From the NCBI RefSeq assembly GCF_000238395.3, contig NZ_CP011025.1, positions 434,001 to 498,000 on the forward strand: a DNA stretch of 64,000 nt. Reading direction: 5' to 3'. The notes beneath the pieces are model-generated. The model saw only the letters and a program-made list of their open reading frames with translations, was not told where the DNA came from and ran no database searches. The translations under genes were made by a program, and so were the position numbers. The stretch's first letter is position 1; each line of letters starts with the position of its first letter. This document shows positions 55,406 to 64,000 of this stretch, in pieces. The DNA is from Pseudoalteromonas arctica A 37-1-2. GTDB lineage: Bacteria; Pseudomonadota; Gammaproteobacteria; Enterobacterales; Alteromonadaceae.

Positions 55406-56213
55406 ATGGCAAAGTTGGTATTGGCAATTGATGACGACAAGTATGTTCATCATATAATTGAAGAGTCTTTAGCAGGGTTTTGTAAAATAATTCATGCAAA
55501 AGATGGCGATGAAGGATTAAGGCTAACCAATAAATACAACCCAGATATTATTTTACTCGATATTGAAATGCCAGGTATGTCAGGTTATGACGTATGTAAA
55601 ACAATAAAGCAAAGTCAAAATACTCAGGATATTCCCGTTATGTTTCTCTCATCTAAAATAGAGCTAAGCGATCGGGTAAAAGGTTATAGCGTCGGCGCAT
55701 CTGATTACATTACAAAACCTTTTAATGCAGAAGAGTTAATAGCGCGAATAAAGGTACTTTACGAATATAGGCAAAAATGCGCAAAACTAAAATTGGATAT
55801 AGTAAAAGCGAATAAAACAGCTGAAATGGCAATGACAGAGTCAGGCGATATGGGACGTATAATGCGCTACGTTGGACAAAGTTATCACGCTAATAACTTT
55901 CAATCGTTGAGTGAATACTTTTTTACCTTTTTTGCTCCTTTAAATTTAGATGTTGTGGTGGTGTTTTGGTATCAAGGAAAAGGTATTTTTTACAGCCAGC
56001 AAAGTGGTGTTTGCCCGTTAGAGCAAGAGCTGCTTGAGCAACATCGAAATGCTCAACGATTTGTTGATATTGGTAGCAGCACTATCATTAATTACCCCAA
56101 AGTGTCCCTTTTGATAAAAAATATGCCAGTTGATAATGATGCTTTGTATGGGCGCTACAAAGATCTGTTCCCGCATATATTAGAAGTAACCAACGAGAAG
56201 GTTGTTATCGGAG
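55406..56213 (+). pseudogene. Response regulator, N-terminal part (split by IS)
   Basis: The CheY-like receiver is complete: acidic D9-D10 near the start, phospho-acceptor D52 in LLDIEMPG, S82/S83 at the Thr position and K104 in YITKPFN. A second domain begins with SGDMGRIMRYVGQSYHANNF and breaks off near residue 269, where the IS3-family element begins. The frame reads on into the IS and stops at 56299, adding about 29 foreign residues. The receiver could still be made as a truncated protein. The missing C-terminal segment is present on the other side of the IS. Confidence 0.88.
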
Positions 56214-56246
56214 TTTTTCAAGTTAGTTGTCGCATCAAATTAAATT

Positions 56247-57311
56247 TTATGCCGCCCGCATTGCTTCTTTTTTCTCTGGATTTAAATTTACTTCATTGAT
56301 CATCGTCCAATCTCGAGACTTTCCTGACCAACGACTTGGATTCTGTAATTTCGCCATCTCATTTACCTGATGACGTTTCGCTAGTATCGCTTTATCTAAT
56401 CCTAAATGACGCTGGTTTGGCGTGACAAATTTAATACCGCTGTGCAAGTGCTCATCGTTGTACCAATCAACAAATCCGCTAACCCACTTTCTTGCGCTAC
56501 CCATGCTTTCAAAGGCTTTCTCAGGGTATTCCGGGCGATACTTTAACGTCTTAAATAGCGATTCAGAATAAGGATTATCATTACTCACAGACGGTCGGCT
56601 AAATGAAGGAACAATACCTAACTCCTGCAATGTCGCTAATAACGTTGCCCCTTTCATTGGACTGCCATTATCCGAGTGCAACGTGACTTGCTCAGGCTTT
56701 ACCTGCTCTCGCCTGCAAATATCTACCATTAAATCAGCCGCCAGTGTGCTTAGTTGTGTGTCATGAACCTGCCAACCAACTATTTTTCGACTATAAATAT
56801 CCATCACTAAATATAAGTATAAAAACTGACCTTTAACAGCTGTTGGCAAATACGTGATATCCCATGTATAAATTTCGTTTACACGTGTTGCCCTGAGCGC
56901 TTTTGGCTTTTTTATCTTTTTATTTGGTTTAACTTTTTCTCTGTGTGTTAATAATTTATGCGATTTCATAACGCGATAAAACGAGCTTTCTGATGCTATC
57001 CACACATCTTTATCCAATAGTTTAGGGACTATCTTGCTGGGTGGTAAATGCCCATATTCTATTGAATTAACCGTCTTAATTATACGCTGTTGCTCTAATT
57101 CAGTTAGCCTGTTAGGTGGTCGCTTTATCGTACTTGTTCGCTTATCTGTCATATCATCAGCTTCAATCCAGCGTTGAATTGTTCTTGCCGTTAGACCAAG
57201 TAACTCACATGCTTTTTCTTGCCTTGCCCCTGATTTCTGCGCGTCGGTAATGAGCTTTATCAATTCATGACGCTCAGTTGAGCTGGTTAATCGTCCTCGT
57301 TGAAACCCCAA
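56247..57311 (-). CDS. IS3-family transposase OrfB (integrase core)
   Basis: Catalytic half of the IS transposase, 354 residues from the in-frame TTG. The DDE triad is D151 in YTWDITYL, D214 in LHSDNGSP and E250 in DNPYSES, with 35 residues between the last two. An N-terminal HTH-like region (ACELLGLTARTIQRWI) and an HTH_21-like stretch precede it. It lies in the -1 frame relative to OrfA and is probably made mainly as an OrfAB fusion. No internal stop is seen, so the transposase may be active. Confidence 0.93.
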   Translation of the reverse strand: MGFQRGRLTSSTERHELIKLITDAQKSGARQEKACELLGLTARTIQRWIEADDMTDKRTSTIKRPPNRLTELEQQRIIKTVNSIEYGHLPPSKIVPKLLDKDVWIASESSFYRVMKSHKLLTHREKVKPNKKIKKPKALRATRVNEIYTWDITYLPTAVKGQFLYLYLVMDIYSRKIVGWQVHDTQLSTLAADLMVDICRREQVKPEQVTLHSDNGSPMKGATLLATLQELGIVPSFSRPSVSNDNPYSESLFKTLKYRPEYPEKAFESMGSARKWVSGFVDWYNDEHLHSGIKFVTPNQRHLGLDKAILAKRHQVNEMAKLQNPSRWSGKSRDWTMINEVNLNPEKKEAMRAA

Positions 57312-57793
57312 AGCGCATCTGCTTTTTTTTTGAGTACGAGTAAGGCGGCTGTTTCTGCTAACGCTTTGTCTTTACGATTAAGCTCTTTTTGAAGCTGCTT
57401 AATTTCTTGTTTGAGCTGTTTACTGTCTGATTTTACGGGCTTCGTTGAAGGCCCTTTAGCAAAATCTTGCTTCCATTGTTTAATATGATGCGGGTAAAGC
57501 CCCTTAGCACGGCAATATTCATTAAGAGCTGCTTCATCTAAACTCGCACATTCAATAATGGCGTTAAGCCTTTCTTCTAAGCTCCAGTCATGAGGGCGTT
57601 TTTCTGTTGTCATGTGACTACCATTATTTTTAGTTTCAAGTTCATGGTTTTTAGCAAGCGCGATCCATCGTTGCAAGGTTGAATAACCGATGCCTAAATC
57701 AAGCGCAATATCTTCTAGGCGAACATCATCACATTGAGATAATGCTTTTTCAACAGCTTGAACTTTAAATTCTTGTGTAAATCGACGTCTCAT
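57287..57793 (-). CDS. IS3-family transposase OrfA
   Basis: DNA-binding half, 168 residues, starting MRRRFTQEFKVQAVEKAL. It has a helix-turn-helix (LEDIALDLGIGYSTLQRWI, about residues 25-43), a second HTH-like part (LNEYCRAKGLYPHHIKQW) and a C-terminal leucine-zipper-like coiled coil (KQLKQEIKQLQKELNRKDKA). The gene overlaps OrfB by 25 bp. Confidence 0.92.
   Translation of the reverse strand: MRRRFTQEFKVQAVEKALSQCDDVRLEDIALDLGIGYSTLQRWIALAKNHELETKNNGSHMTTEKRPHDWSLEERLNAIIECASLDEAALNEYCRAKGLYPHHIKQWKQDFAKGPSTKPVKSDSKQLKQEIKQLQKELNRKDKALAETAALLVLKKKADALWGFNEDD
57323..57331 (-). promoter_or_regulatory. Slippery A9 run for -1 frameshifting in the IS
   Basis: Nine consecutive A on the minus strand (T on the plus strand) followed by GC lie close to the end of orfA. 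OrfB lies in the -1 frame. A -1 slip there gives a continuous OrfAB protein, as is established for many IS3-family elements. Confidence 0.75.
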
Positions 57794-57840
57794 TTTATCT
57801 GCCTCTATTAAAAGTTAGAGGCGACAACTATCCTGACACA

Positions 57841-58225
57841 GGGGGTTACCATGGAAAGAAGCGAAAGCAGTTATGAGCAGGCAGCTCAAATAAGTACAGC
57901 CCTTCAAGATATTGTTAAGCAGTTAACTACTCAAAATGTAGAGCAAAACAAAAGTACTAAAGAGTTTATAGAGCAGCTACATGAACTTGACTGCGCTATT
58001 AAGCTACAACAAACACAAGCTAATCCTGCGGATCTCACTTTATATATATCTCAATTGGATCAAACAATGCAGTTATTTGTATCGGCTAATAGTGATTTAG
58101 CCTTTATCAAATATCAGCTTAAACAAGTTGCCGAAAGCCGCAATGAACTTATATCTAATTTACGTACTAAAGCGGAAGCCGCAAAGGTCAATACGAATCA
58201 TCATAGTGATATAGAGCTATTTTAG
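57841..58225 (+). pseudogene. Response regulator, C-terminal part (split by IS)
   Basis: The frame continues directly from the IS edge (QGVTMERSESSYEQAAQIS) and gives about 127 residues, mostly helical and probably coiled coil (SNSDLAFIK-like ANSDLAFIKYQLKQVAESR), ending at a TAG. It has an ATG at 57851, but no good ribosome site and no recognisable domain. Together with 55406-56213 it would give a protein of about 396 residues. It lies 57 bp upstream of rsmJ. Confidence 0.75.
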
Positions 58226-58282
58226 TGCTTTAAAGTAAAGCGGTTGATATACTACAGGCGTATTTTATCGTCGGAGTTTATT

Positions 58283-59038
58283 GTGGTTATTCAGTGTGCT
58301 TTTAAAGAGTTACGCCCTTATTTAAATGAATTAGAAACACGCTTTGGTTTAGCCCAATGGGCGCAAAATTGCAGTGGCTTTAGCTTACATTACGATGATA
58401 AAGGGTTAAGTCTATTTAAAACCGACGAGCCTAAACTAGGTGCAATTAACGTTGATTTTGTAACCGGTGCTGCCGCCCATAGGCGTAAGTTTGGCGGTGG
58501 TAAAGGGCAAGCAATTGCCAAAGCAGTGGGTTTAAATAAAGGCGCAACGCCTGTTGTACTTGATGCTACCGCTGGTTTAGGGCGAGATGGTTTTGTACTT
58601 GCCTCGCTAGGGTGCAAAGTTATATTACATGAACGTCACCCGGTTGTAGCTGCACTTTTATACGATGGTTTAAAGCGAGCCTATAGCGATATTGAAATTG
58701 GTTTGTGGATGAAAGAAAACATGAGCCTAATATTTGGCTCAAGCCATACTTTGCTCTCTCAATGCGAAAGCATGCCTGATGTTGTTTATTTAGATCCCAT
58801 GTTCCCGCATCGCGAAAAATCAGCATTAGTTAAAAAAGAAATGCGCGTATTCCAAGAGCTTGTTGGTGCAGACAACGACGCTGACGACCTACTTGATTTT
58901 GCCTATCCACTTGCCAGTAAGCGTGTTGTTGTAAAGCGCCCCGATTACGCTCCATTCTTAAACGAAAAAACTCCAAGTATGCAGATCAAAACCAAAAAGA
59001 ACCGTTTTGATGTCTATGTAAAAGCGGCAATGGTTTAA
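58283..59038 (+). CDS. rsmJ: 16S rRNA m2G1516 methyltransferase RsmJ
   Basis: AdoMet-dependent methyltransferase modifying G1516 of 16S rRNA. It has [40 protein letters not shown] (AdoMet motif I), the catalytic-type [10 protein letters not shown], and the ending [11 protein letters not shown]. The GTG at 58283 is preferred as start, with GGAG six bases before it; a frame open to 58244 is longer than the family. About 251 residues, like E. coli RsmJ. Its 3' end appears to be the target used by the adjacent Tn7-like transposon. Confidence 0.95.
58992..59025 (+). other. Predicted CAST target: CC PAM plus 32-bp protospacer in rsmJ
   Basis: CC at 58992-58993 is followed by 32 bp (58994-59025) ending 50 bp before the first transposon base at 59076. 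Type I-F3 CRISPR-associated transposons use a CC-type PAM 5' of a 32-nt protospacer and insert about 48-50 bp downstream. The geometry and orientation fit, but this is inference, because the matching crRNA is not in the window. Confidence 0.5.
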
Positions 59039-59070: not shown

Positions 59071-59075
59071 ATTTA
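59071..59075. other. Candidate 5-bp target-site duplication (ATTTA)
   Basis: ATTTA directly precedes the TGT terminus of the Tn7-like element. Tn7-family transposons duplicate 5 bp. The second copy would be at the far end, outside the window, so it is unverified. Confidence 0.5.
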
Positions 59076-59084
59076 TGTCGCTGA

Positions 59085-59226
59085 AACCATACTTTGACAT
59101 AATACAAGCATACTGTGACATAATTAAACCATACTTTGACATAAAACTTACTTAAGAAAATGCAGGGAAAATAAATTTATTTACTATCATGAACTTATAT
59201 TTTTATTTAAGCATAGTGTGACATAA
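59085..59226. repeat. Four TnsB-binding-type repeats at the transposon end
   Basis: Site 1 AACCATACTTTGACATAA (59085-59102), site 2 AAGCATACTGTGACATAA (59106-59123), site 3 identical to site 1 (59127-59144), and site 4 AAGCATAGTGTGACATAA (59209-59226). Sites 1-3 start at exact 21-bp intervals, two helical turns, so they lie on one face of the DNA; site 4 is 82 bp further in. The motif resembles, from memory, the AACCATAAAGTGATA-type repeats at the ends of Vibrio I-F3 elements. These are probably TnsB sites. Confidence 0.88.
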
Positions 59227-59254
59227 CCATTTTTTATTTGTATATTATGTATAC
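59218..59254 (+). promoter_or_regulatory. Candidate tnsABC promoter with palindromic operator
   Basis: GTGACA (59218-59223) and TATATT (59241-59246) are spaced 17 bp and could be -35 and -10 boxes. The -35 lies inside TnsB site 4, which would allow TnsB autorepression, as known for Tn7. GTATA-TTATG-TATAC (59240-59254) is an inverted repeat over the -10, a possible operator for another regulator. No clear Shine-Dalgarno precedes tnsA. Confidence 0.4.
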
Positions 59255-59282
59255 GATGATAATAAAAATACTGGTTTAGCGC

Positions 59283-59912
59283 ATGTATATACGTAACTTA
59301 AGAAAACCTTCCCCTAATAAGAATGTATTCAAATTTGCTAGCACTAAAGTTGGCAATGTAATTATGTGTGAAAGTACATTAGAGTTTAATGCTTGTTTTC
59401 ATAATGAATATAACGATTTAATCGAAAGCTATGGTAGTCAACCAGAGGGTTTTAAGTATGAGTTCATGGGTAAAAGCTTGCCTTATACCCCTGACACGGT
59501 AGTCGTATACAAAGATAAATGTGTAAAATATCATGAGTATAAGTATGAAACAGAAACAGCTGAGCCTTTATTTAGAGAAAGGTTCTCTGCAAAAAGAGCC
59601 GCTTGTCTAAAAATGGGCGTTCAGTTGATTTTAGTAACTGAAAACCAGATTACAAAAGGACTTGCTTTGAATAACTTTAAGCTATTGCATCGATACTCGG
59701 GTGTTTACGGTATTAAAAATATTCAGAGTGAAATGCTTAATTTTATTAATAAATCAGGAGCAATAAACTTAGTTGATGTAAAATCTCAATTTAATTTGTC
59801 AATTGGTGAAGCACGGTCTTTTTTATATGCATTGCTTCATAAAGGTTTGTTGAAAGCAGATTTAGAGGATGATGATCTAAGTAATAACCCAACATTATGG
59901 GTTACACCATGA
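59283..59912 (+). CDS. tnsA: TnsA transposon endonuclease
   Basis: Restriction-endonuclease-fold subunit of the Tn7-type transposase that cuts the 5' ends, permitting cut-and-paste movement. The N-terminal nuclease domain shows E34 in ESTLEFNACF, D71 in LPYTPDTVVVY and K87 in HEYKYE (the E...D...ExK pattern), followed by the conserved SAKRAACLKMGVQLILVTE. The C-terminal domain is a small winged-helix-like region (IGEARSFLYALLHKGLL). The 209 residues are typical of the shorter I-F3-type TnsA. Its stop overlaps the tnsB start (ATGA). Confidence 0.93.
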   Translation: MYIRNLRKPSPNKNVFKFASTKVGNVIMCESTLEFNACFHNEYNDLIESYGSQPEGFKYEFMGKSLPYTPDTVVVYKDKCVKYHEYKYETETAEPLFRERFSAKRAACLKMGVQLILVTENQITKGLALNNFKLLHRYSGVYGIKNIQSEMLNFINKSGAINLVDVKSQFNLSIGEARSFLYALLHKGLLKADLEDDDLSNNPTLWVTP

Positions 59913-61750
59913 CAGATTTTTTCGATGAATTTAATGAATCGTTAGCGCCACTCAAACCGCAAACACCTACACGATATCTCAAATTAGATGACGCTAACTT
60001 AATCAAGCGTGATTTGGATACCTTTTCAAATACTTTAAAAAACGAAGCGCTACAAAGGTATAAACTAATTATCTCTATAGATAAAAAGCTGTCAGCTGGG
60101 TGGACCCAGCGAAATTTAGATCCTATTTTAGATGAGATTTTTAAAGAAGATGAGCAAGCTCGGCCAAATTGGCGGACTGTTGCTCGTTGGCGTAAAAAAT
60201 ACATCGAAAGTAATGGTGACCTAGCTTCTCTTGTGGTTAAGAACCATAAAATGGGTAACCGAAACAAACGCATAGAAGGCGATGAGAGTTTTTTTGATAA
60301 AGCATTAGAGCGTTTTTTAGATGCTAAAAGGCCTACCATAGCAACTGCCTACCAGTACTATAAAGACCTTATTGTTATTGAAAATGAGAGTATTGTTGAA
60401 GGTAAGATTCCAATTATATCTTACACAGCTTTTAATAAAAGAATCAAAGCAATACCCCCATATGCTGTCGCTGTGGCAAGACATGGTAAATTTAAAGCAG
60501 ATCAATGGTTTGCTTACTGTGCTGCTCATGTACCCCCTACAAGAATATTAGAGCGTGTAGAGATTGATCATACCCCACTTGATTTAATTCTACTTGATGA
60601 TGAGTTACTTATCCCTATAGGAAGGCCTTACCTAACATTACTTATTGATGTATTTAGTGGTTGCGTTCTTGGTTTTCATCTTAGTTATAAATCTCCTTCG
60701 TATGTATCTGCGGCTAAGGCTATTGCTCATGCGATTAAGCCAAAGTCACTTGATGCTCTGAATATACAACTACAAAATGATTGGCCTTGCTTTGGTAAAT
60801 TTGAAAATTTAGTAGTAGATAATGGTGCTGAGTTTTGGTCAAAAAACTTAGAGCATGCTTGTCAGTCTGCAGGAATAAATATTCAATATAACCCCGTACG
60901 CAAGCCCTGGCTCAAACCATTTATAGAGCGTTTTTTTGGTGTGATGAACCAATATTTCTTGCCGGAAGTTCCAGGTAAAACATTTTCAAATATATTAGAA
61001 AAAGAAGAATACAAACCTGAGAAAGATGCAATTATGCGTTTCTCAACTTTTGTTGAAGAATTTCACCGCTGGATTGTAGACGTATACCACCAAGATAGTA
61101 ACTCACGTGAAACTCGTATCCCAATTAAGCGATGGCAACAAGGATTTGATGTTTATCCTCCTTTAACTATGAATGAAGAGGATGAGGCGCGTTTTACTAT
61201 GCTAATGCGCATCTCAGACTCAAGAACGTTAACTAGAAATGGTATAAAATATCAAGAGCTAATGTATGACTCGACTGCTTTAGCTGATTATCGAAAACAT
61301 TATCCCCAAACAAAAGAAACTTTAAAAAAACTGATTAAAGTCGACCCTGATGATATTTCAAAAATTTATGTTTACTTAGAAGAACTGGAAAGCTACCTAG
61401 AAGTACCGTGTACAGACCCTACCGGTTATACGGATGGGTTAAGTATTTATGAGCATAAAACAATAAAAAAAGTTAACAGAGAAACCATTAGGGAATCTAA
61501 AAATAGTTTGGGTTTGGCTAAAGCTCGCATGGCTATACATGAGCGAGTAAAACAAGAGCAAGAGGTTTTTATTGCATCAAAAACTAAAGCTAAGATAACG
61601 GCCGTTAAAAAGCAGGCTCAAATAGCTGATGTAAGTAATACAGGAAAGGGTACCATTAAGGTCTCTGAAGAAAGTGCAGCTCCTGTGCACAAAAATATTA
61701 GTAACGATGCTTTCGATGATTGGGATGATGACTTAGAGGCATTTGAATGA
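59909..61750 (+). CDS. tnsB: TnsB DDE transposase
   Basis: Binds the terminal repeats and makes the 3' cuts and strand transfer. The ATG at 59909 overlaps the tnsA stop (ATGA); a frame open from 59897 is four codons longer. The DDE triad is D220 in VEIDHTPLD, D304 in LVVDNGAEF and E340 in PFIERFFG, with 35 residues between the last two. An N-terminal HTH region lies around 55-110 (PNWRTVARWRKKYIE). The C-terminal tail (NDAFDDWDDDLEAFE) is acidic and likely contacts TnsC. 613 residues. It overlaps tnsC by 4 bp. Confidence 0.95.
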   Translation: MTDFFDEFNESLAPLKPQTPTRYLKLDDANLIKRDLDTFSNTLKNEALQRYKLIISIDKKLSAGWTQRNLDPILDEIFKEDEQARPNWRTVARWRKKYIESNGDLASLVVKNHKMGNRNKRIEGDESFFDKALERFLDAKRPTIATAYQYYKDLIVIENESIVEGKIPIISYTAFNKRIKAIPPYAVAVARHGKFKADQWFAYCAAHVPPTRILERVEIDHTPLDLILLDDELLIPIGRPYLTLLIDVFSGCVLGFHLSYKSPSYVSAAKAIAHAIKPKSLDALNIQLQNDWPCFGKFENLVVDNGAEFWSKNLEHACQSAGINIQYNPVRKPWLKPFIERFFGVMNQYFLPEVPGKTFSNILEKEEYKPEKDAIMRFSTFVEEFHRWIVDVYHQDSNSRETRIPIKRWQQGFDVYPPLTMNEEDEARFTMLMRISDSRTLTRNGIKYQELMYDSTALADYRKHYPQTKETLKKLIKVDPDDISKIYVYLEELESYLEVPCTDPTGYTDGLSIYEHKTIKKVNRETIRESKNSLGLAKARMAIHERVKQEQEVFIASKTKAKITAVKKQAQIADVSNTGKGTIKVSEESAAPVHKNISNDAFDDWDDDLEAFE

Positions 61751-62748
61751 ATGCCTTAACAGAAATACAGATAGAACAGTTACGTAACTTTAGCGATTGC
61801 ATCGTTATGCACCCACAAATTAAAGCAATTTTTAATGACTTTGATGAATTAAGATTAAACCGTAAATTCCAATCAGATCAGCAAGGTATGCTTTTAATTG
61901 GTGATACAGGAGTTGGAAAAAGCCACACTATTAATCACTACAAAAAAAGAGTTCTAGCTACTCAGAATTATAGTCGAAACACTATGCCAGTCCTAATAAG
62001 TCGTATATCTAGAGGTAAAGGCTTAGATGCAACTTTAATCCAAATGCTGGCAGATCTGGAGCTATTCGGAAGTAGCCAAATGAAAAAGCGAGGCTACAAA
62101 ACAGAGCTTACTAAAAAGCTTGTAGAAAGCTTAATTAAAGCTCAGGTTGAATTACTCATCATTAACGAGTTTCAGGAGTTAATAGAGTTTAAAAGTGTAC
62201 AAGAACGACAACAAATCGCAAATGGGTTAAAGTTTATTAGTGAAGAAGCCAAAGTGCCAATAGTACTGGTTGGTATGCCTTGGGCTGCAAAAATAGCTGA
62301 AGAACCACAATGGGCTTCTCGCTTAGTTAGAAAAAGAAAACTTGAATACTTTAGCTTAAAGAACGACAGCAAGTACTTTCGCCAATATTTAATGGGCCTA
62401 GTGAAGCAAATGCCATTTGATGAGCCACCTAAGCTTGAAAGTAAACATACTACAATGGCGCTATTTGCTGCATGCCGAGGGGAAAATAGAGCACTTAAAC
62501 ATCTACTGATGGAGGCTTTAAAATTAGCACTAAGTTGTAACGAATATCTTGAAAATAAACATTTTATTGCAGTTTATGAAAAATTTGATTTTTTTAATGA
62601 CAAAGATTCACTAAAGCTAAAAAACCCATTTAAACAAGATATTAAAGATATTATTATTTATGAAGTAACGAAGAATTCATCTTATAACCCAAATGCATTG
62701 GACCCTGAGGATATGCTCACAGGTCGGAAGTTTGCAATAGTAAAATAA
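61747..62748 (+). CDS. tnsC: TnsC AAA+ regulator
   Basis: ATPase that forms filaments or rings on target DNA and links the target-selection complex to TnsA/TnsB. Walker A is GDTGVGKSH at residues 52-60. The Walker B stretch is LLIINEFQEL, with asparagine (N140) before E141 where many AAA+ proteins have Asp. A sensor-like PIVLVGMPWA follows, then SRLVRKRKLE with arginines in the finger position. At 333 residues it is close to I-F3-type TnsC and much shorter than Tn7 TnsC (555). No tniQ follows directly. Confidence 0.94.
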   Translation: MNALTEIQIEQLRNFSDCIVMHPQIKAIFNDFDELRLNRKFQSDQQGMLLIGDTGVGKSHTINHYKKRVLATQNYSRNTMPVLISRISRGKGLDATLIQMLADLELFGSSQMKKRGYKTELTKKLVESLIKAQVELLIINEFQELIEFKSVQERQQIANGLKFISEEAKVPIVLVGMPWAAKIAEEPQWASRLVRKRKLEYFSLKNDSKYFRQYLMGLVKQMPFDEPPKLESKHTTMALFAACRGENRALKHLLMEALKLALSCNEYLENKHFIAVYEKFDFFNDKDSLKLKNPFKQDIKDIIIYEVTKNSSYNPNALDPEDMLTGRKFAIVK

Positions 62749-62854
62749 GCTCTACTAGCCTAGGTCGATTAAGGAGATTCTTCAACTATGTTGTGGTGAT
62801 TCAATCAAGTCTGACAGTCGCATATGTGCCACTAGCAGACATTGAAGATTCTTA

Positions 62855-63034
62855 ATGTGTGACCCATACGCTTCTAGACAATGCCCGCATCCAAGAAAAT
62901 CGGATGAAATTGGAAATACACTGACTGAAAACAACGAATTAATACAGCACTATAAACGAGAAATGAAAATCGAAAAATCGAAAAACAGAAGGCAAAAAAT
63001 CACGGTAACGCTCTTAGTCGAAAAAACAGTTTGA
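62855..63034 (+). CDS. Possible small ORF (59 aa), unknown
   Basis: ATG at 62855, stop at 63032-63034. The product is strongly basic in its C-terminal half (HYKREMKIEKSKNRRQKI) with a hydrophobic VTLLVEK end. There is no good Shine-Dalgarno. It lies 106 bp after tnsC, in the same orientation. It may be a small cargo gene, a remnant or chance; nothing identifies it. Confidence 0.25.
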   Translation: MCDPYASRQCPHPRKSDEIGNTLTENNELIQHYKREMKIEKSKNRRQKITVTLLVEKTV

Positions 63035-63076
63035 TAAATAAGTTAAAGACCAATGCTGAATACTTAAGTTCATTCA

Positions 63077-63112
63077 TCGAAGAGAGCTATGAAACATAAA
63101 AGCTCTCTTCGA
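63077..63112. repeat. Perfect 12-bp inverted repeat inside the transposon
   Basis: TCGAAGAGAGCT (63077-63088) and AGCTCTCTTCGA (63101-63112) flank a 12-base spacer, ATGAAACATAAA. There is no T tract, so it is not a classical terminator on the plus strand. It could be an RNA hairpin ending or protecting the tnsABC transcript, or a protein-binding site. Confidence 0.6.
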
Positions 63113-63262
63113 ATTCAACCTTTACCTCCAACAGAAATACTAGTAATTCCCTTTTTTCCTAGGTTGCCCCTTAAACCCTTACCTATTCTGATGCTCTTTC
63201 TACATCTCATGTAGCTGTCCCTGCATTAATTAATGTTTACTATATCTTCATTTAACAAAGCT

Positions 63263-63294
63263 CAAAGTATCAGAGCAACAAAGTATCAGAGCAA
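63263..63294. repeat. 16-bp tandem duplication
   Basis: CAAAGTATCAGAGCAA occurs twice head to tail (63263-63278 and 63279-63294). A further CAAA follows. It is too short and has no spacers, so it is not a CRISPR array. Confidence 0.85.
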
Positions 63295-63371
63295 CAAAAG
63301 AAAACTTAATAAGGTTCATAATGGATGTTAGAAATAGTGTTACATAGCAGTTGAACTTTCATGTATTTTAA

Positions 63372-63390
63372 AGCCTTGTTTTACAAGGCT
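63372..63390. terminator. Hairpin terminator between tns region and cargo gene
   Basis: AGCCTTG and CAAGGCT pair around TTTTA. On the plus strand it is followed by CTATTTTTT; on the minus strand by TTTAAAAT. It would serve the convergent minus-strand cargo gene and any plus-strand transcription from tnsABC. Confidence 0.75.
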
Positions 63391-63405
63391 CTATTTTTTA
63401 ATTAA

Positions 63406-64000
63406 TTATTTTGTATAAGTACATATATATGAACCAGGAGCTTTACCGCCTACACAAGAAACTCGTCCTGCAGAAGAAGGTGATTTAGCAGAGGTACTGT
63501 AAAATTGGGCTCCAGAACGCACGGCTGCATCATAAAAATTTGAGAAAGTTGATAAACCACCTTTTTTAAAGGTATATGTACGTGGTGATGTTACAGGAAG
63601 TGTAGGTTCAACTTTGTTTCCGTCAACATCTCTACCATGTTCAAAATCCCATATAAGCTCATCACCAATAATTCCAAATAACGAATATATTGCAATGCTT
63701 TTGTCATCAAAAGCAACCTGCATAAAGACTTTTTCAATTTCAGCAACGCCAGAAACTTTTGCCGCTGCGATTGTAAAGTTCGATATATCCTGATCTAGGG
63801 TTGTATGTTCATTATAATAAGATGAAACTTCATATTGTTTTGCACCAAATCCAACTAAGTCCCAAGCGCTACCTGCAATCTCTTTAGGCACAATAGTTGC
63901 GCTTACTCCAGCTAAGCTTGCAACAACAGCACTTTTTGCATCAGATATATTATGAAAAGTATTTAAAACGTCCTGCTCTACACCATAGCTATCTACAGTC
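63406..64000 (-). CDS. Hypothetical cargo protein, C-terminal part (cut by window edge)
   Basis: The minus-strand frame is open from the window edge to its stop at 63406, about 198 residues; the N terminus lies beyond 64000. The internal GTG at 63891 is unlikely to be the real start. The visible part has no strong membrane helix and contains AGSAWDLVGFGAKQYEVSSY, GDELIWDFEHGRDVDGNK and a cysteine pair near the end (VSCVGG and YICTYTK). The family is not recognised. It is convergent with tnsABC and probably transposon cargo. Confidence 0.7.
   Translation of the reverse strand, partial: TVDSYGVEQDVLNTFHNISDAKSAVVASLAGVSATIVPKEIAGSAWDLVGFGAKQYEVSSYYNEHTTLDQDISNFTIAAAKVSGVAEIEKVFMQVAFDDKSIAIYSLFGIIGDELIWDFEHGRDVDGNKVEPTLPVTSPRTYTFKKGGLSTFSNFYDAAVRSGAQFYSTSAKSPSSAGRVSCVGGKAPGSYICTYTK

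Follow-up and report, generated by a model that had tools for sequence, protein, structure and literature searches.

The 64,000-nucleotide stretch of the Pseudoalteromonas arctica A 37-1-2 genome analysed here (the window, G000:C1:434001-498000) ends inside a CRISPR-associated transposon (CAST; CRISPR, clustered regularly interspaced short palindromic repeats). Followed past the window edge, it is almost certainly a complete type I-F3b CAST that belongs to the PseCAST (Tn7016) lineage and has inserted on the downstream side of rsmJ. The gene set, the ends, the target-site duplication, the empty site, the match between guide and target, and the distance between target and insertion were all observed directly in the sequence. 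The element occupies G000:C1:493076-541946, has a length of 48,871 bp, and starts at window position 59076; its remainder was read from the downstream sequence C1:492501-592500, divided into pieces L004-L008. An original prediction, made from the window, had placed a probable type I-F3 CAST after rsmJ and expected tniQ, cas8/5, cas7, cas6, a CRISPR array, and an attachment (att) spacer in its unseen part. All of these were found about 25-30 kb from the element start, and the spacer matches rsmJ. The original prediction also called such an element a real find. A predicted RNA-guided transposon with its own ends and cargo is present, but its novelty has to be toned down, with PseCAST as the closest relative and rsmJ as a published I-F3b site (PMC11406308). 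Type I-F3b CASTs at rsmJ with defence, metal, and metabolic cargo are already published (PMC12452197).

The termini have the TGT...ACA form of type I-F3 CASTs, with TnsB repeats at both ends and a 5-bp duplication. On the tnsA side, the TGT terminus TGTCGCTG begins at 59076, 37 bp after the rsmJ stop codon, which ends at 59038, and is followed by four TnsB-type repeats, as had been described from the window. Sites 1-4 differ from a 19-base site motif by 0, 3, 0, and 4 mismatches; the background of this motif is about five sites per shuffled 100-kb sequence, with up to five mismatches and both strands counted. The four sites have the top four matrix scores in the surrounding 100 kb, a ranking that is circular because the matrix was derived from the same four sites. 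An independent check is provided by a 27-base end pattern, which, with up to two mismatches, occurs at nine places in 8 of the 108 Pseudoalteromonas genomes that form the genus sample, whereas the reversed-pattern control gave 0. The opposite terminus, CAGCGACA, has its last base at C1:541946 and is accompanied by two clear inverted TnsB-type sites (C1:541842 and 541865), which places the anticipated second end 48.9 kb from the first. A far end directly behind the CRISPR array was considered and rejected: there are no ends there, and the actual end lies 18 kb further. In the close relative G010 (identity of 93% across a core gene of 2 kb), trmJ directly follows rsmJ. The halves of the G010 rsmJ-trmJ locus align by blast to C1:492501-493074 and C1:541946-543489. 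Therefore, G010 represents the empty site.

The element encodes TnsA, TnsB, and TnsC of Tn7 type, as type I-F3 CASTs do. The three genes are linked, as proposed from the window, by ATGA overlaps at both junctions (tnsA end 59912 and tnsB start 59909; tnsB end 61750 and tnsC start 61747), and their Pfam families agree with the assignment. TnsB contains a Mu transposase C-terminal domain (8.4e-9, Pfam) and has an integrase core match below the cut-off. Among sister elements, TnsA is less conserved (70-74%) than TnsB and TnsC. Further inside the element, tniQ (L005:5627-6856) is followed by cas8/5, cas7, cas6, and the array (L005:10759 to about 10960). TniQ has 409 residues and matches the TniQ_IF profile at 5e-124. 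Cas7 and Cas6 match the Csy3 (9e-51) and Csy4 (1e-26) profiles, both above the cut-offs, and the fused Cas8/5 has a weak match to Csy2 (5e-6) below the cut-off. A short TniQ beside cas8/5-cas7-cas6 within one element is the arrangement of type I-F3 CASTs. The outcome named in advance as fatal to the CAST identity, a classical Tn7-like element that has a long TnsD-type TniQ but lacks cas genes, is ruled out by the TniQ_IF-type TniQ of this length and by the cas genes. The adaptation module is absent: Cas1 was not found in a whole-genome search, the control for which was positive in 9 of 14 genomes. The type I-F Cas3 (Cas2/3), searched for with TIGR02562 only, gave no match genome-wide, with a control positive in 4 of 14 genomes and above the cut-off in one.

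The array consists of three typical repeats, GTGACCTGCCGTATAGGCAG, and one atypical repeat, AACTCTGCCGAAAAGGCAG, which flanks the att spacer. A 101-residue protein of the element has the unnamed structure 4o8b (2e-18) as its best solved match and the Csp231I C protein 3lfp (2e-17) as its second best, and is predicted to be a C.Csp231I-like regulator of the RtbC type. The att site of branch I-F3b is rsmJ or ffs (PMC11406308), and its published marks are rsmJ, the atypical repeat, and a C.Csp231I-like regulator (PMC11406308, PMC12452197). The P. arctica element has the rsmJ att site, the atypical repeat by the att spacer, and the regulator. Spacer 1 (L005:10787-10818) is identical to the third spacer of the element in genome G021, and its reverse strand could contain a putative RNase H-like motif. 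Behind the array, there is an Xre/ParS-type antitoxin-like gene (L005:11132-11581), which is kept in G021 (93%); no partner toxin was recognised adjacent to it.

PseCAST is among the best-studied CASTs. The best solved-structure relatives of TnsA, TnsB, TnsC, TniQ, and Cas8 are all chains of PseCAST (Tn7016 of Pseudoalteromonas sp. S983; PDB 30ga, 30jv), which comes from the same genus. TnsB, TnsC, TniQ, and Cas8/5 align with it over their full length with few substitutions, and TnsA matches over residues 1-209 with 333 bits. However, none of the four TniQ proteins of the lineage that were compared is identical to the solved one; therefore, the P. arctica element is distinct from Tn7016. The I-F3b element Tn6900 from Aeromonas, which we take to be the source of the PDB 7u5d chain, shares the Cas8/5 fusion and TniQ and is placed on the same branch by score order, but the scores are much lower (TniQ: PseCAST 853, Tn6900 297, Tn6677 104 bits; Cas8: 1419, 529, and 166 bits). 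The I-F3a element Tn6677 of Vibrio cholerae has the same gene set but is distant, with TnsC at 85-89 bits. The name ssl2 denotes a helicase family. The Shewanella I-F3b CASTs at rsmJ, which share site and subtype with the P. arctica element, have an average size of 36 kb and carry defence, metal-resistance, and ssl2 genes, and some complete metabolic operons (PMC12452197). A sugar-utilisation locus is not mentioned in the covered parts of that paper, and the word 'sugar' occurs 0 times in its main text.

The last spacer of the array, AAAAACAATCGATTCGATGTTTAAGTTAATGT, matches the 3' end of rsmJ next to a CC protospacer adjacent motif (PAM), with mismatches at positions 6, 9, 12, 15, 21, 24, 27, 30, and 32. 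Eight of the nine are located at third codon positions (P 3.6e-5), and four fall at every-sixth-base positions; class 1 effectors flip out every sixth base (PMC12774636). The gap between the protospacer and the terminus is 50 bp, in agreement with the distance of about 49 bp from the insertion in type I-F3 CASTs. The chance of finding an equally good match where one is predicted is P ~3e-8 for equal base use and 4e-6 for an assumed per-base mismatch of 0.68. No result contradicts the assignment of the element to type I-F3b, but the case has weak points. Nine mismatches separate the guide from its own target, and 200 shuffled guides reached a minimum of 9 and a mean of 12.8 mismatches within a 3.5-kb locus. 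The guide is mismatched at positions 27 and 32, which lie in stretches that are sensitive in VpCAST, where a full mismatch at 25-29 abolished transposition and a mismatch at 31-32 impaired it (PMC12774636). Blast searches with spacers 1 and 2 against phages and plasmids gave weak matches alone (best E 0.9 to 3; one plasmid match of spacer 1, E 3, falls within a gene of the ribonuclease H family), and neither spacer had a match (0) when viral contigs were scanned exactly, leaving the flipped positions open. The mismatch count alone is not decisive because shuffled guides also reach 9 within 3.5 kb; what decides for the predicted guide-target match is its position, the PAM, and the wobble pattern.

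The guide is constant across the lineage. The TniQ_IF profile matches 48 of the 108 genus genomes at E <=0.001, 23 of them near full length (E below 1e-100), and five of these 23 were placed in the lineage at rsmJ: the P. arctica element, G021, G103, G052, and G026. In all five elements with tns and cas genes, the last spacer is the identical 32-base sequence, with an atypical repeat of the same kind behind it, whereas the remaining spacers differ, except for the one common to P. arctica and G021. The tniQ-cas region of the P. arctica element is 88.8-93.3% identical to those of the other four. Three of the five elements are imperfect: about 1.6 kb of other DNA interrupts tnsB of G021 (L070:2826-4438), tnsC of G026 ends after residue 204 near a contig end, and the tns and cas parts of G052 and G026 are on separate contigs and were treated as one element. 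The guide was checked against 32 rsmJ loci from the genus, comprising the 30 returned among 60 matching genomes, L073, and L090. It matches none of them exactly; 248 of the 282 mismatches are at wobble positions, 32 at position 32, and two at position 10. Among 394 genomes of the order, 18, P. arctica included, match the guide within three mismatches when the flipped positions are left open, and some of these matches are spacers rather than rsmJ. In G206, from another family, the mismatches are confined to the flipped positions and position 32. The published view that one guide serves many hosts through wobble tolerance (PMC11406308) agrees with these results, and what is new is a guide that stays frozen while the tniQ-cas region differs by 7-11%. 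Locus L158 of G434, from another family of the order, contains a lone CRISPR RNA (crRNA) unit with a near-identical att guide, which differs at positions 12 and 32. This unit is bordered by repeat-like halves just past an rsmJ-like stop codon and is possibly a CAST leftover beside its own target.

Elements also stack at rsmJ. All eight genomes with the end pattern carry it beside rsmJ, and the ninth place is an extra inner end in G026. Perfect 5-bp duplications flank all five elements with tns and cas genes: ATTTA in P. arctica, ACTTT in G021, AGGAT in G103, TTGTC in G052, and AATTG in G026. In G021, the newer element is positioned directly before an eroded end of older origin. The duplications of G026 and G052 overlap the terminus of an earlier element, of which only about 33 bases remain in G052. 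Such stacking would be the expected outcome if the 50-bp spacing were fixed and the protospacer stayed unchanged. No older end was seen beside the P. arctica element or that of G103. Genomes G064, G049, and G022 have the end pattern but no tniQ assigned to the lineage; G022 contains a full-length TniQ_IF match elsewhere in the chromosome (C1:2303565).

Part of the cargo is a carbohydrate-use locus with adjacent SusC and SusD homologues and a glycoside hydrolase, the composition of a polysaccharide utilization locus. The profile matches are 2e-35 for SusD_RagB, 2e-16 for the TonB plug, and 8e-77 for the N-terminal domain of GH32, for which the N-terminal piece was scanned. The GH32, PfkB kinase, sugar transporter, and LacI genes suggest fructan as the presumed substrate. 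SusD occurs in 6 of the 108 genus genomes at E <=1e-20. A scan with one genome per species identified 51 SusD loci, of which the gammaproteobacterial ones are 74-97% identical to that of P. arctica and the Bacteroidota ones 50% or less. A tree was built from 46 sequences, namely 45 of these loci and that of P. arctica, with six omitted. In it, the 16 labelled gammaproteobacterial rows all fall to the same side of a branch supported at 100/100; the tree has no root, and a program warning concerns long branches that meet at the join. We read this as a probable old transfer of SusD from Bacteroidota with later spread through marine Gammaproteobacteria. The fructan locus shares 93.7% identity across 11,679 bp with that of P. 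rhizosphaerae RA15, in which the sampled core gene is 82% identical, and 89.2% identical over 10,588 bp to that of the close relative P. fuliginea, with a core gene at 93%. One core gene and rsmJ served as yardsticks of vertical descent. The discordance between locus and core-gene identities indicates that, of the P. arctica and P. fuliginea copies at rsmJ, one or both have not descended together with the core genome from the common ancestor. The order in P. fuliginea KMM 216 (L090, one contig) is rsmJ, a CAST terminus that retains one eroded TnsB site, the fructan locus without the kinase, a CAGCGACA terminus, and trmJ. Neither tns nor cas genes were detected between these end remnants, and G064, taken as P. 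fuliginea KMM 216, has no TniQ_IF match. The bases flanking the two ends, ATGTC and AGAAT, form no duplication; therefore, the unit is eroded or recombined. No obvious capture signature was seen at the boundaries of the P. arctica fructan locus on inspection by eye. Sugar-catabolism genes are known in Tn7-like elements (PMC8649781); no report of SusC/SusD or a polysaccharide locus as CAST cargo was found among the matches listed from the open-licence literature, judged by titles and abstract openings, which is a weak sign of absence.

We infer all biochemical steps, and present-day activity, from knowledge of the family. The array would be processed by Cas6, and the crRNA from the last spacer and the atypical repeat downstream of it would load Cas8/5, Cas7, and Cas6 together with TniQ. 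The loaded complex would bind the 3' end of rsmJ at the CC PAM, where TnsC would assemble and recruit TnsA-TnsB bound to both ends. Insertion would take place 50 bp past the protospacer, with 5 bp duplicated and the tnsA end toward the target. The RtbC-type regulator presumably controls the switch. We give even chances to a broader proposal in which RNA-guided homing serves as a delivery dock: a frozen, codon-degenerate guide, exact to no genus rsmJ compared, would steer CASTs to one address across the genus, where stacking and decay would leave cargo behind, and a fructan locus of Bacteroidota-type SusC/SusD would thereby have arrived there in at least two versions.

The nine mismatched guide bases could also be read as decay in a real but inactive CAST, an old arrival the guide of which has drifted. 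However, drift would not spare the guide, which is identical in all five elements despite the divergence of their tniQ-cas regions. The duplication is still perfect, a close relative has the empty site, and all of the tnsABC, tniQ, and cas genes are open reading frames. An inactive CAST is very unlikely, and a decayed element was rejected in view of the open genes together with the perfect duplication.

The origin of the fructan locus has two further explanations. It may be an island that was already resident when the CAST inserted next to it, as four of the six SusD-bearing genus genomes have no CAST ends or tns or cas genes in the flanks fetched, some of which were shortened by contig ends. 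However, the P. arctica locus is located between termini that share ATTTA, and G010 lacks such genes at this site; therefore, barring a later entry by recombination, the locus belongs to the unit that inserted, and a resident island is improbable. The locus could instead have been added by recombination among CASTs or remnants sharing rsmJ ends, rather than by the original insertion. The stacked ends in G021, G026, and G052 are in favour of this, as are the P. fuliginea locus between eroded ends without a shared duplication and the array of G103, which adjoins the far end, whereas 18 kb of cargo lies between the two in P. arctica. However, no internal end was found inside the P. arctica element at the score threshold used, and its duplication is perfect, so that insertion of a finished element fits at least as well. 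Recombination is a serious possibility, with chances we put at about one in three.

Between tnsC and tniQ, the cargo starts with the 311-residue gene and continues with copper-resistance genes (multicopper oxidase, CopB, CopC, CopD, a response regulator, and a CusS-type sensor), a candidate phage-defence gene (PADLOC PDC-S71, 6e-235), and a candidate defence pair of an ATPase and its partner (best matches PDC-M01A, 2e-154, and PDC-M01B, 3e-57; the ATPase also matches PtuA of Septu, 6e-74). A helicase and a 194-residue partner adjoin the C.Csp231I-like regulator. The two are found by the regulator in three sister elements (P. arctica L005:97-2474, G103 L074:7773-10141, and more distant versions in G021 L071:1741-3921) and possibly form a conserved accessory module. 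Past the array, the order is the Xre/ParS-type gene, the fructan locus, three genes, and the far end; in our reading, the three genes probably encode a GGDEF/EAL protein, a methionine aminopeptidase, and a LysR regulator. Some 37 bp of sequence behind tnsC (window 62826-62863) are repeated in the cargo at C1:509531-509567 (95%) and in contig C3:22664-22701 (87%). Upstream of rsmJ, a response-regulator gene (window 55406-58225) is split in two by an IS3-type transposase gene pair (56247-57793); its P. fuliginea homologue (L090:128-1309, 393 residues) is whole. The coordinates of the features are listed below.

Features of the CAST and its target; coordinates are window positions unless prefixed with C1
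Feature	Coordinates	Strand	Basis
rsmJ, attachment target at its 3' end (start codon from the open reading frame tool)	58244..59038	+	Pfam SAM_MT PF04445, 1.6e-104
CC PAM	58992..58993	+	sequence; first PAM base C in 32/32 loci compared
Protospacer of last CRISPR spacer, 23/32 bases matched	58994..59025	+	alignment to rsmJ 3' end
Target-site duplication ATTTA, perfect 5 bp	59071..59075; second copy C1:541947-541951	+	sequence; empty site in G010
Terminus, tnsA side, TGTCGCTG	59076..59083	+	sequence, end-pattern scan
TnsB-type site 1	59084..59102	+	motif scan
TnsB-type site 2	59105..59123	+	motif scan
TnsB-type site 3	59126..59144	+	motif scan
TnsB-type site 4	59208..59226	+	motif scan
tnsA, 209 residues	59283..59912	+	Pfam TnsA N-terminal endonuclease 1.6e-10; PseTnsA part of PDB 30jv, E 5e-99
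tnsB, 613 residues counted from the ATG overlapping the tnsA stop	59909..61750	+	Pfam; PseTnsB 1308 bits
tnsC, 333 residues	61747..62748	+	TniB PF05621 4e-23; PseTnsC 685 bits
First cargo gene, 311 residues in full; no Pfam match for the window part	63406..64000	-	Pfam scan
Fructan locus: PfkB-type kinase, SusC, SusD, sugar transporter, GH32, second transporter (our reading), LacI regulator	C1:524297-535969		

The P. arctica element is a natural and apparently intact relative of a CAST developed for human-cell engineering. It has its own ends, guide, regulator, and large cargo, and therefore offers natural variants together with a native guide-target pair. The wobble mismatches of the invariant guide, present in every host examined, provide a natural experiment on the mismatch tolerance of RNA-guided transposition. 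The fructan cargo suggests that RNA-guided transposons are able to move whole carbohydrate-use loci among marine bacteria.

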